Shown: positions 17,364-42,887 of the stretch, piece after piece
Numbering within the stretch: the first letter of the stretch is position 1
How the letters are laid out: every line of letters starts with the position of its first letter
Assembly (NCBI RefSeq): GCF_020172665.1
Contig: NZ_CP083985.1
Coordinates: forward strand, 2,044,326 to 2,108,325
DNA from: [Mycobacterium] zoologicum
GTDB taxonomy: Bacteria; Actinomycetota; Actinomycetes; Mycobacteriales; Mycobacteriaceae
Reading direction: 5' to 3'
DNA: 64,000 nucleotides
Program-made: the position numbers and the translations under genes
The notes under the pieces: model-generated
Told to the model about the DNA's origin: nothing
Database searches by the model: none
The model's input: only the letters and a program-made list of their open reading frames with translations

Positions 17364-18050
17364 TCACCAGCCCCGCTGACGCCACTCCTTCAGATGCGGG
17401 CGCTCGGCGCCCAGCGTCGTGTCATCACCGTGACCGGGGTAGACGACGGTGTCGTCGCCGAAGCGGCCGAACACCTTGGTCTCGACATCATCGAGCAGTC
17501 GCTCGAAATCGCCGGGCTGCCAAGTCTTTCCGACACCTCCCGGAAACAGGCAGTCGCCGGTGAACAGCTGCGTCACGCCGCCGGCGGCCGCGGCGCCCAA
17601 CGCCAGCGCCACCGACCCCTCGGTGTGGCCCTGCAGATGGATCACATCGAAGCTCAGATCCCCGACGGTCACGGTGTCGCCGTCGGCCAGGATCCGGTCC
17701 GGTTTCACCGGCAGCGGCTCGGCATCCAGGGCGTGCGCGGCCGTCGGCGCCCCGGTCGCCTCGGCGACCTCGGCCAGGGCCTGCCAATGGTCGAAGTGCT
17801 GGTGGGTGGTCAGGATCAGCGACACCTGCGGTGCCTGCTCGCGCACCAGGGCCACCAGATTCTCGGCGTCGTTGGCGGCGTCGATCAGCAGCGTCTGGCC
17901 GGTGTTGGCGCACGTCACCAGGTAGGCGTTGTTGTCCATCGGGCCCACCGAGGTCTTGATGATGGAGGCTCCGGGCAGCACCCGCCGGGCCGCGGTTCCG
18001 GGTTCGACGTGCCCGGTGTAGTGGTCGTCGACCGAGATCTTGCGCGTCAT
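17364..18050 (-). CDS. metallo-beta-lactamase-fold hydrolase (Rv1637c type)
   Basis: A 228-residue glyoxalase II-like hydrolase. The metal-binding motif is TTHQHFDHW (His83, His85, Asp87, His88), with further ligands in [18 protein letters not shown] and VYPGHGDDT. It is likely to hydrolyse thioesters such as S-acyl glutathione or mycothiol analogues, judging from the family, but the substrate is not shown by the sequence. The ATG at 18050 fits the family; longer frames run into the uvrA promoter. It is tail-to-tail with the USP gene (5-base gap) and divergent from uvrA. Confidence 0.88.
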
Positions 18051-39593: not shown

Positions 39594-40256
39594 ATGCAAT
39601 TGGCAATTCGTCCCATGGTCACCTTTGGCGTCGCGGTGATCGGCGCCGTCCTGATTCAGGTCACGCCCCTGGCCGAACCCACTGTCGGCTATCGCGGGGT
39701 CGAACTCGCTGCTGCCGTGGACAGCATCGACTTAGTCGGCTCGGTCGATGCGTTGGTCGCCGGTGCGTGGACGGCAGGAGTCGGAGTGTCCACCGCCGAT
39801 CTCGGCTCCGAGCAGCCGAACCCCGCCGACATGGTCCTCCCTCTGTACCTGGACCCGGAATTTTGGCAGGCTTGGTGGGACGAGCTGACAACCGGTAACG
39901 GCGTCGGCGCCTGGTTCATGCTGATCAATGCCGCAGCGGAGCTTCCCATAATCGGCCCCATTTTCTCGGTCATAGGGCTTGCCTCAATATTCGTGCCAAT
40001 GTGGTTGGCTACCATTCCGCATATTGAGTTTTCTGGCTTCGACGGCAATCCTGCCGTTGCCGAGGGAGTGGGAGTTCTGGGAGACGGTGCAGCCCCTGAC
40101 TTGGATCTCGGTGCCGTGATGTCGATCCTGGACTCCAGTGCGACAGGCGACCTGGGCAGCGCATTCGACTCTGCCGGAGTTGCGGACATCGCGACAGTGC
40201 CCGACATCAGCCCGATCCCGGACCTCGACGGGGTTCTGACGAGTCTCATGCCCTGA
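39594..40256 (+). CDS. hypothetical secreted or surface protein
   Basis: A 220-residue protein with an N-terminal signal peptide (QLAIRPMVTFGVAVIGAVLIQVTP). This RP-x-VT-x-GVA-x-x-GA style of signal is common in exported mycobacterial orphan proteins. The mature part has a tryptophan-rich helix (YLDPEFWQAWWDELTTGNGV), two hydrophobic stretches (WFMLINAAAELPIIGPIFSV and IGLASIFVPMWLA) and an acidic, low-complexity C-terminus (DLDLGAVMSILDSSATGDLG). I do not recognise a named family. It lies where M. tuberculosis has PE_PGRS30, between pheT and argC. A membrane or outer-membrane location is possible. Confidence 0.7.
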   Translation: MQLAIRPMVTFGVAVIGAVLIQVTPLAEPTVGYRGVELAAAVDSIDLVGSVDALVAGAWTAGVGVSTADLGSEQPNPADMVLPLYLDPEFWQAWWDELTTGNGVGAWFMLINAAAELPIIGPIFSVIGLASIFVPMWLATIPHIEFSGFDGNPAVAEGVGVLGDGAAPDLDLGAVMSILDSSATGDLGSAFDSAGVADIATVPDISPIPDLDGVLTSLMP

Positions 40257-40269
40257 TGCCGAGCGACAA

Positions 40270-41469
40270 CTACAGCAGCACAGGGCGTTCGGTCTCCCAG
40301 AGCGCACGCCACTGGTGTTCCTCGTCACTCTTCTGGCGGTTGAGTTCCGCCGATGGGCTGCTGAGGTGAATCTCGGGGGGCTCGGCGAAGAAGTCGCCCG
40401 CGCCCCGCGACGACGCGCCGGCCCCGGTGTCCAGATAGCAGTAGCCCTGTCCGGAGAGTTCCTCGGTGCGGTCGAGGATCCCCAGATAGTGCAGGGCACT
40501 GCGGGTCGCCGACACCGCGCCGTTGCGGGCGAACGCCGCTGCCTTGGGCAACGATCGACCCCAGGGCGTGGTGACGGTCGTGGTGTCGCCAATCGCGTAG
40601 ATGCCCGGATGTCGGGTTGCCATGGTGGCGGTATCGACGCTGATCCAGTCCTCGTCACCGATGGTGATGGCCGGGCGGTGCGGCGGGATGAACATCAACA
40701 AGTCGAAACCGGCCTCGGTGCCGTTGTCGAAGGTGACTACCCGGCGCGCTGCGTCAACGGCGGCGACCTGATGTTCGGCGTGGAATGCGATGCCACGCTG
40801 CCGCAGGAGCTCGACGAGCTCGCCCCCCGCGTAGGGGCCGGCGGACGGCATGGGTTGCACTTCGGGCGTGTAGGCGGTGATCTCGGTGGCGGCTCGTGCA
40901 CCCGTGGTCTCCAGCAGGTCGGCGGCAAGCATCGCGCCCTCGTAAGGAGCCACCGGGCAGCGATAGACCGGTGAGGTCACCAGGAACATCAGTCGCCCGC
41001 CGGTGAAGCCGCTCAGGGCACGATGCGCCTCGGCTGCGGCGTCCCGGTCGTAGTAGTGAACCGCCACCCCTGTGGCCACCGCGTCGGCCAGCCCGGGCAC
41101 GCGATCCACGGCATTGCGTGCACCGGTGGCCAGGATCAGGGCATCGAACTCCAGCGTGGTGTCGTCATCGAGGGTGACCTGTTGCCGCTGCGGGTCGACC
41201 GCGCTTACTCGACCGGTGACCCGGTTGACCCGGTTCAGTGCGGCCTCGGTGGGCCGGATCGGCACGCTGTCTGGTGCCCGCCAGCCTCGCATGACCCACG
41301 GCAGGGTGAATCCGAGGAAATGGGAGAAGTCCTCGTCGACGATGGTGATGTCGATCTTGTCGAGTATTGCTGCTGCCGAGCCGAATTCGGCTATCTCCTT
41401 GATAACGCTCAAGCCGCCGACGCCGGCTCCGAGGATGAGCAGTTTCTTTGCGCCGGGGGCGTGCGGCAT
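40270..41469 (-). CDS. sulfide:quinone oxidoreductase-like flavoprotein
   Basis: A 399-residue FAD enzyme of the SQR/flavocytochrome c sulfide dehydrogenase family, likely to oxidise sulfide to persulfide or polysulfide and pass electrons to quinone. FAD-binding GAGVGGLS is at 14-21, LILATGAR is at 111-118 and the second FAD motif GIYAIGDTT is at 289-297. The two redox cysteines expected in SQR are present as Cys171 (PVYRCPVAPYEG) and Cys344 (GQGYCYLDTGAG). A short amphipathic C-terminus (ALWETERPVLL) could touch the membrane. It is divergent from a DUF2892 gene, with twin CsoR/CstR-like palindromes between them, which supports a role in sulfide or persulfide handling. Confidence 0.82.
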   Translation of the reverse strand: MPHAPGAKKLLILGAGVGGLSVIKEIAEFGSAAAILDKIDITIVDEDFSHFLGFTLPWVMRGWRAPDSVPIRPTEAALNRVNRVTGRVSAVDPQRQQVTLDDDTTLEFDALILATGARNAVDRVPGLADAVATGVAVHYYDRDAAAEAHRALSGFTGGRLMFLVTSPVYRCPVAPYEGAMLAADLLETTGARAATEITAYTPEVQPMPSAGPYAGGELVELLRQRGIAFHAEHQVAAVDAARRVVTFDNGTEAGFDLLMFIPPHRPAITIGDEDWISVDTATMATRHPGIYAIGDTTTVTTPWGRSLPKAAAFARNGAVSATRSALHYLGILDRTEELSGQGYCYLDTGAGASSRGAGDFFAEPPEIHLSSPSAELNRQKSDEEHQWRALWETERPVLL

Positions 41470-41537: not shown

Positions 41538-41553
41538 ATACCCGCTGGGGTAT
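41538..41553. promoter_or_regulatory. CsoR/CstR-like operator, site 1
   Basis: ATACCC-GCTG-GGGTAT is a perfect 6-4-6 palindrome. The TACCC-N4-GGGTA core resembles operators of CsoR-family sensors, which include CstR-type persulfide sensors. It lies 69 bases from the SQR start on the SQR side of the divergent region. Confidence 0.68.
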
Positions 41554-41558
41554 ATTTG

Positions 41559-41574
41559 ATACCCTAGCGGGTAT
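41559..41574. promoter_or_regulatory. CsoR/CstR-like operator, site 2
   Basis: ATACCC-TAGC-GGGTAT is a second perfect 6-4-6 palindrome with the same arms. Its centre is exactly 21 bases (two helical turns) from that of site 1, so two regulator tetramers could bind the same face of the DNA. TATATT at 41551-41556, between the sites, could be the -10 element for the DUF2892 gene. Confidence 0.68.
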
Positions 41575-41619
41575 ACGCAGTGCGGTCCAGTGCGGCCGCG
41601 GACACGAGGGAATGCACCG

Positions 41620-41913
41620 ATGGAATGCGACCAAGCTGCTACTGGAACTGAACGGGTGACCTTCAAGCCGCCGCGCCCACCGGGGTGGCCCTTGGAGCGT
41701 GTTCTGCATCTGATGGCGGGGACCGTGGTGCTGACCAGCGCAACGCTGGCGTACCTCTTTGGCCCGCTGTGGCTCATCCTGACCGGCTTTGTGGGCGCCA
41801 GTCTGCTCCTCGACGCATCCGTGGGCTGGTGTCCGGCGAGCCTGGTGCTGTACCGCCTCGGTATACGCACTTCCGCGGAGTGCGGGCTGCACCGAGCCAG
41901 CCGCATTCCGTAG
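41620..41913 (+). CDS. DUF2892 (YgaP-type) membrane protein
   Basis: A 97-residue protein with the DUF2892 domain, the two-helix membrane segment found alone or fused to rhodaneses in sulfur-metabolism loci. The core is WPLERVLHLMAGTVVLTSATLA, LFGPLWLILTGFVGASLLLD and GWCPASLVLYRLGI, with Cys71 in the conserved GWCP motif and an extra Cys88. GAGGGA lies 8 bases before the ATG at 41620. It is divergent from the SQR gene and shares the operator pair, so it is probably induced together with it. DUF2892 proteins are suspected to move or handle persulfide sulfur, but this is unproven. Confidence 0.8.
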   Translation: MECDQAATGTERVTFKPPRPPGWPLERVLHLMAGTVVLTSATLAYLFGPLWLILTGFVGASLLLDASVGWCPASLVLYRLGIRTSAECGLHRASRIP

Positions 41914-42005: not shown

Positions 42006-42887
42006 ATGGCGGCCGTTCATCACCGCTACCTCACCGTCGACGGGCACCGGATGTTCTTCCGCCAGGCGGGGGAGCCTGATTCGCCCGCCGTGGTGCTGTT
42101 GCACGGTTTTCCGACCAGCTCATACATGTTCCGGAACCTGGTGCCGTTGCTCGCCGACCGCTACCACGTCGTCGCGCCGGACCACCTGGGCTTCGGGCTG
42201 TCCGACGCCCCGACCGTCGAGGACTTCGACTACACCTTCGACGGCCTCACCGAGCTGACCGCGAGCTTGCTGCGAGCCCTGGGAATCCGCCGCTACGCGA
42301 TGTACGTCCAGGATTACGGCGCACCGATCGGATGGCGGTTGGCGCTGGATGACCCGGAATCGATCACCGCGATCCTCACGCAGAACGGCAACGCCTACGA
42401 CGCCGGATTTGTCGAGAGCTTCTGGAAGACGGTGCGGGACTACCAGTTTGCCCAGACCCCCGAGAGCGAGGCCGCGGTCCGGCAGTTCCTCACTCTCGAG
42501 GCCACCCGATGGCAGTACGTCACCGGAGTGGCCGATGAGACTCTGGTGGACCCCGAATCCTGGTGGCACGACTACACGTTGCTGTCGCGTCCCGGAAACG
42601 ATCGGGTGCAACTGAAACTGTTCCGGGACTACGCCAGCAACGCACCGATGTATCCCCAGCTGCACGACTACTTCCGGGCCAGCCAGGTGCCGTTGCTCGC
42701 GGTCTGGGGTCGCGGTGATGAGATCTTCGGTCCGGCGGGTGCGGAAGCCTTTGCAGAAGACCTGCCGGCCGCCCAGATCCACCTGCTCGACGGCGGCCAC
42801 TTCCTGCTCGAGTCCGCACTGACCGAGGTCACTGCACTGATCCGCGCCTTCCTCGCCACGGCATTTCGAGAGGAGTCGACTCCATGA
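42006..42887 (+). CDS. alpha/beta hydrolase with Asp nucleophile (haloalkane dehalogenase/epoxide hydrolase type)
   Basis: A 293-residue alpha/beta hydrolase. The nucleophile elbow is YVQDYGAPIG with Asp103 instead of Ser, the mark of haloalkane dehalogenases and epoxide hydrolases. The oxyanion HGFPTSSYMF is at 33-42, the acid is probably Asp238 (WGRGDEIF) and the base His265 (DGGHFLLE). The cap domain (about 130-215) is Trp/Tyr rich. The exact substrate is unknown; the GFPTSSYMFRNL start is also seen in uncharacterised stress-linked hydrolases. It follows the DUF2892 gene after 92 bases and overlaps the next gene by 4 bases (ATGA). Confidence 0.85.
   Translation: MAAVHHRYLTVDGHRMFFRQAGEPDSPAVVLLHGFPTSSYMFRNLVPLLADRYHVVAPDHLGFGLSDAPTVEDFDYTFDGLTELTASLLRALGIRRYAMYVQDYGAPIGWRLALDDPESITAILTQNGNAYDAGFVESFWKTVRDYQFAQTPESEAAVRQFLTLEATRWQYVTGVADETLVDPESWWHDYTLLSRPGNDRVQLKLFRDYASNAPMYPQLHDYFRASQVPLLAVWGRGDEIFGPAGAEAFAEDLPAAQIHLLDGGHFLLESALTEVTALIRAFLATAFREESTP

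Follow-up and report, generated by a model that had tools for sequence, protein, structure and literature searches.

A predicted CstR-type, persulfide-responsive divergon in [Mycobacterium] zoologicum and its probable place in a wider mycobacterial regulon

CsoR-family sulfur sensors that control sulfur oxidation are already known in Staphylococcus, Streptomyces, Bacillus and Thermus, and three of them are close counterparts of the locus analysed here. In Staphylococcus aureus, CstR is a Cys–Cys persulfide sensor over sulfur genes, and its own gene lies inside the operon which it controls (PMC9774590). ScCsoR of Streptomyces coelicolor (SCO0620) is a two-cysteine repressor with two ATACCn6GGTAT sites in its target promoter; it binds promoter fragments with this motif, less well after polysulfide, and its gene adjoins its sulfur-oxidation targets, which encode a persulfide dioxygenase, a rhodanese and a sulfite transporter (PMC7533328). 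TTHA1953 of Thermus thermophilus has an N4-spaced TAC/GTA palindrome as its operator, acts on targets distant from the regulator gene, shows little cross-binding with the copper CsoR and binds DNA more weakly when the protein is disulfide-linked (PMC10318464). The consensus of the streptomycete copper CsoR has a 5-nt spacer (PMC3902906). The mycobacterial locus shares with S. aureus the Cys–Cys sensor over sulfur genes, with ScCsoR the two cysteines, the two sites and the sulfur-oxidation targets, and with TTHA1953 the N4 spacing, the targets far from the regulator gene and a predicted separation from the copper regulator. Unlike ScCsoR, however, the putative regulator is encoded in trans, and SQR, DUF2892 and MmpL were not seen among the ScCsoR targets in the available part of that report. 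It also differs from S. aureus in having three separated loci, to which mmpS-mmpL and a mycothiol-type oxidoreductase are added, and from TTHA1953, which controls a Sox pathway.

The window, by which we mean the whole stretch of 64,000 nucleotides that was analysed, carries the divergent pair of genes listed below; the gene of the candidate regulator is given last.

40270–41469, minus strand: sqr-like gene, encoding a 399-aa flavoprotein of the sulfide:quinone oxidoreductase (SQR) family; Pfam Pyr_redox_2 over the cut-off
41538–41553, no strand: palindrome 1, ATACCCGCTGGGGTAT, a predicted CstR operator; exact match to ATACCC-N4-GGGTAT
41559–41574, no strand: palindrome 2, ATACCCTAGCGGGTAT, a predicted CstR operator; exact match to ATACCC-N4-GGGTAT
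41620–41913, plus strand: gene of a YgaP-like/DUF2892 membrane protein, 97 aa, with a GWCP motif; PF11127
C1:303963–304229: gene of a CstR-like protein, 1.78 Mb from the twin palindromes

The initial annotation had described two perfect ATACCC-N4-GGGTAT palindromes 21 bases apart, and both are exact matches; the span it gave, 41538–41913, takes in the palindromes and the DUF2892 gene and leaves the SQR gene outside. The starts of the two sites are 21 bp apart, about two helical turns, and the pair lies 69–105 bp before the SQR start and 46–82 bp before the DUF2892 start, so that the nearer palindrome is 69 bp from the former and 46 bp from the ATG of the latter. In the 64-kb window these are the sole matches at ≤2 mismatches; shuffled windows gave a mean of 0.48 matches, and two were reached in 6 of 100 shuffles. 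The search for further sites which the initial annotation had proposed found three exact ones in the whole genome (one contig of 4.43 Mb) and none in the reversed-letter control. The nearest named SQR loci are those of Mycolicibacter sp. MYC017 (95%) and MYC098 (95%) and of M. heraklionensis (90%). The three nearest orthologous loci all have twin sites at the same 21-bp spacing, with 0+0, 1+1 and 0+0 mismatches, and in a four-genome alignment of the intergenic region the twin sites are, as judged by eye, the best conserved block. A promoter and terminator scan found no sigma-70 consensus promoter at the twin sites and one terminator-like match overlapping palindrome 1, which is probably a by-product of the palindrome. 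The twin palindromes very probably serve as binding sites of a repressor that senses sulfur and whose gene lies elsewhere on the chromosome.

What do the two flanking genes encode? The SQR-like protein has the two-cysteine, FAD-type pyridine nucleotide-disulfide oxidoreductase fold, and the PDB entries closest to it are SQRs (E 3.3e-18). It contains just two cysteines, Cys171 and Cys344. Both align with cysteines of the SQR chain 8dhk, and of 62 distinct matches each is found in 61, the one left over in each case being a match that does not extend to the position; the two redox cysteines had been correctly recognized in the initial annotation. The best curated model, NCBIfam SQR_III_seleno (type III SQR, a selenoprotein subtype), gave 151 bits against a cut-off of 525, and the SQR identity therefore rests on distant homology, below that cut-off, with quinone reduction as a predicted activity. 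A selenocysteine was considered on account of this model and of one in-frame TGA in several homologues, and was dropped because in three loci in which the SQR end was read the match overran the normal C-terminal stop. The gene adjoining sqr (39594–40256) encodes a 220-aa protein for which no Pfam or NCBIfam match was obtained at E ≤ 0.001.

The divergent gene likely starts at the ATG at 41620 rather than at the GTG at 41590, and by eye an RBS-like GAGGGA would serve this ATG. Its assignment to PF11127 (E 9.5e-10, 38.9 bits against a cut-off of 25.3) was scored on the GTG-start ORF, 41590–41913. Cys71, the GWCP cysteine, is present in all nine matches that reach it among 11 distinct ones, the window's own included, which bears out the earlier description of a DUF2892 membrane protein with a conserved cysteine. 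In the one rhodanese that we scanned for domains, this YgaP-like domain forms part of the same polypeptide, and the membrane protein of the window thus seems to correspond to the membrane portion of a known fusion protein of sulfur transfer. Downstream, an alpha/beta hydrolase gene (42006–42887) sits between the DUF2892 gene and an FAD oxidoreductase gene; MYC017 and MYC098 have too short a gap at this place to hold it, and it may reflect a recent insertion or loss.

The regulatory model had been made to depend on a CsoR-family protein being present in the genome, though not encoded near the locus. At E ≤ 0.001 there are two such proteins, RicR and the CstR-like protein, and both genes are outside the window. 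RicR scores 188 bits against the NCBIfam RicR cut-off of 175. The CstR-like protein has the CsoR/RcnR fold (PF02583, 82.6 bits against a cut-off of 22.8) and gives 41 bits with the RicR model; its best PDB chains are 7mq1–7mq3, and 7MQ2 has been named CstR (PMC9774590). Cys35 and Cys64 are present in all 58 distinct sequences at ≥60% identity, itself included, and position 60, the copper-ligand His in RicR, is Gly in 57 of these and Ser in one. The protein thus has the two sensing cysteines of a CstR and lacks the copper-ligand His; control of sulfide or persulfide oxidation and rhodanese genes, the other mark of a CstR, is seen at the level of sites and synteny.

Could RicR itself read the twin sites, which would make the divergon copper-responsive? 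RicR is encoded in the genome, and a similar G-tract palindrome lies in the promoter region of the gene just before ricR. That palindrome, ATACCCCGAGGGGGTAT, has however N5 spacing, as does the copper-CsoR consensus in the literature, where the spacer is 5 nt (PMC3902906), whereas the window sites are N4 and so do not have the form of a RicR operator. We compared the two spacings in 148 genomes of the genus, which is seemingly Mycobacterium in the broad sense, and called CstR homologues by protein search at E ≤ 1e-12. Exact N4 sites were found in 120 of the 126 genomes with a CstR homologue (six had none) and in none of the 22 without it (Fisher p 3.9e-21, uncorrected for kinship). N5 sites were found in all 148, which shows that the N4 pattern does not come from base composition or from the loss of all such palindromes; in reversed-letter controls, matches appeared in one genome for N4 and in three for N5. 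Nor is the pattern the result of one single loss: a tree built on PheT from 30 members of the set (19 of the 22 CstR-negative genomes and 11 CstR-positive ones, hand-picked among those with sites) requires at least five changes of CstR presence, four of them forced by well-supported branches. The absence of CstR is nonetheless clustered on this tree (five changes against a mean of 9.2 with shuffled labels, and as low in 1 of 500 shuffles), so that these genomes cannot count as independent observations, and the p value makes the association look stronger than it is. At ≤1 mismatch, none of 30 SQR loci contains an N5 site. The published spacings (5 nt for copper CsoR, n6 for ScCsoR and N4 for TTHA1953) agree with this N4/N5 division. 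Copper, which had been named as a possible signal, is therefore disfavoured by the N5 spacing before ricR and in the copper-CsoR consensus, and we regard the reading of the twin sites by RicR as very unlikely. A divergon of the CsoR/CstR type with persulfide as its putative signal, as originally proposed, is supported: the N4 sites track CstR and not RicR across the 148 genomes, and cstR adjoins sqr in many relatives.

This synteny can be followed in the SQR loci themselves. SQR-like proteins (E ≤ 1e-30, identity as low as about 30%) were matched in just 57 of 396 genomes of the genus, which makes sqr an optional target. Among the best 30 of these 57 loci (28 loci, the window and locus G157), N4 sites at ≤1 mismatch occur in 27, exact ones in 16, and three loci (L137, L138 and L140) contain none. 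The same search with N2, N3, N5 or N6 spacers, with the reversed motif or with swapped halves gave 0/30 each, and each of ten Markov resamples gave no site. In 14 of the 28 loci cstR is within about 1.5 kb of sqr, and 13 of the 28 contain mmpS or mmpL; DUF2892 was matched in eight of the 30 (six of the 28, the window and G157). In a second set of 16 loci from named species, which shares some genomes with the 28, four lack cstR within the stretch covered, namely M. arupensis and the three orthologues; the other 12 have cstR within 6 kb in 11 cases, mmpS-mmpL in nine and N4 sites in 11. In Mycobacteroides franklinii, M. chelonae and M. sp. LB1, a single cluster with N4 sites holds cstR, mmpL-mmpS, a DsbA/Rv2466c-like gene and sqr. 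In Mycolicibacter arupensis, DUF2892 and sqr are again paired; the two matches are separated by about 0.7 kb, and the locus has three N4-type sites, of which two lie at a distance of 23 bp. We also compared 11 SQR stretches from other genera; a cstR match is present in five of them and an N4 site at ≤1 mismatch in two. These two belong to one other genus of the same family, with a CstR 69–70% identical and a one-mismatch site, and in both of them cstR precedes sqr in the same orientation.

The genome of [M.] zoologicum appears to hold more than one such locus. With the looser pattern ATACC-N6-GGTAT at ≤1 mismatch we found 33 sites against 12 in the reversed control, and many single sites are thus background. 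These sites make three close pairs, with spacings of 21, 32 and 32 bp, or roughly two and three turns of the helix; when sites were placed at random 20,000 times, pairs within 100 bp averaged 0.024 and three were never reached. The pairs are at sqr/DUF2892 (21 bp), between cstR and the DUF302-oxidoreductase genes (32 bp) and before mmpS-mmpL (32 bp). The gene of CstR stands back to back with genes for a DUF302 protein and for a member of the Rv2466c-like mycothiol-dependent family, and the intergenic sites have one mismatch each to the looser pattern and two and one to strict N4. At C1:2275132–2276318 the third exact N4 site and a one-mismatch partner 32 bp away precede mmpS-mmpL. Single sites at ≤1 mismatch were treated as chance near 142680 and 2452024, both inside ORFs, and near 300595, where the flanking DNA looks coding.

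A TetR-like gene, named by eye, adjoins the mmpS-mmpL pair, and two regulators may therefore share this promoter. Might an unrelated regulator, such as a TetR protein, be the one that binds the palindromes, their likeness to CstR sites being accidental? The closeness of the third exact site to this gene would fit, as would the unnamed genes found at the sites in five of 30 sampled genomes, but the co-occurrence of N4 sites with cstR across the genus speaks against it, and in at least 13 genomes, picked for a site near cstR, the distance from the site to the CstR match is 28–151 bp. We consider an unrelated regulator with an accidental likeness of its sites extremely improbable.

The sample just mentioned consists of one N4 site, chosen automatically, from each of 30 other genomes of the genus. 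In 23 of them the site adjoins one or more of cstR (10), an MBL-fold protein (9), mmpS or mmpL (7) and DUF302 (6); the other seven comprise one peroxiredoxin gene (AhpC/TSA), one gene of a CLC-type channel and the five unnamed genes. The MBL-fold protein, persulfide-dioxygenase-like and preceded by the N4 site in its nine genomes, starts with MKFxQYYLxCLSHASYL and was mostly assigned by eye from this N-terminus. One such protein that we scanned is a metallo-beta-lactamase joined to a rhodanese, the arrangement of CstB-type persulfide dioxygenases. In the present genome we found no clear persulfide dioxygenase, only weak partial matches; the best match of the whole genome to the protein of the relatives, which falls inside the window on the minus strand at 17406–17939, is weak (30%, partial).

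The signal itself could be of another kind, with a CstR-like protein that binds the sites and senses general thiol oxidation or electrophiles instead of persulfide, as discussed for TTHA1953. The latter, with its N4-spaced palindrome, its distant targets and its weaker DNA binding when disulfide-linked (PMC10318464), offers a precedent, and in other genomes of the genus a thioredoxin gene and the AhpC gene have N4 sites in their vicinity. Genes of the persulfide type nevertheless recur at N4 sites (the MBL-fold gene in nine of the 30 sampled genomes, and SQR), and ScCsoR responds to polysulfide (PMC7533328). We judge a general thiol sensor to be unlikely.

Our preferred reading, in which we place considerable confidence, is that the twin palindromes form a tandem operator repressed in trans by CstR and relieved by persulfide; binding, repression, the inducer and the enzyme activities are predicted from the genes, the sites and their conservation. 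At low reactive sulfur, CstR would hold the operator pair and keep the divergent sqr and DUF2892 genes silent, and would likewise silence its own promoter at the DUF302-oxidoreductase locus and mmpS-mmpL. Rising persulfides or polysulfides would then modify Cys35, with or without Cys64, and the modified CstR would release the operators and allow the target genes to be expressed. SQR would oxidize sulfide with a quinone as acceptor, and the DUF2892 protein, as a membrane partner in sulfur transfer like that of the rhodanese–YgaP fusions, would handle the sulfur made by SQR together with other members of the regulon. The initial annotation had seen here a new local system. The sqr/DUF2892 divergon is better described as one of three separated targets of a predicted regulon that is widespread in the genus. 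Several results weigh against the preferred reading: the lack of a consensus promoter at the twin sites, the six CstR-positive genomes with no exact N4 site and the three SQR loci with none, the small number of N4 sites at SQR loci outside the genus, the optional presence of sqr and the few DUF2892 matches beside it, the distant homology behind the SQR identity, and the want of a clear persulfide dioxygenase in this genome.

A sulfur-stress gene set, the MmpL transporter included, appears to recur in many mycobacteria, judging from the neighbours of the sites. That it is a widespread mycobacterial reactive-sulfur regulon, with N4 operators for CstR and N5 operators for RicR and with an MmpS-MmpL exporter and an Rv2466c-like mycothiol-dependent oxidoreductase among its members, we hold to be fairly probable. 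Three features appear to be new: a trans-acting regulator on split loci, sulfur and copper operators that differ by one base in their spacers, and the membership of mmpS-mmpL and of an Rv2466c-like gene. Among the matches listed in our literature search, which covered few subscription journals, no title or opening of an abstract describes a mycobacterial CstR regulon, and none ties an RND/MmpL exporter to sulfur stress. In M. tuberculosis, Rv1766 is an uncharacterised CsoR-like protein (PMC4531530); its relation to the CstR of this genome is only a lead. A study of the same species reports effects of hydrogen sulfide on its respiration and on its copper regulons, and did not settle whether Rv0331 is an SQR (PMC6987094).

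A CstR-type sensor with a readable operator would give mycobacteria a dedicated persulfide switch that can be tested. If the N4/N5 rule is true at the bench, sulfur and copper targets could be assigned from sequence. The sites before mmpS-mmpL point to a role of an RND exporter in sulfur stress; if the wider regulon is real, persulfide stress would be coupled to export by MmpL and to the chemistry of mycothiol, beyond the oxidation of sulfide.
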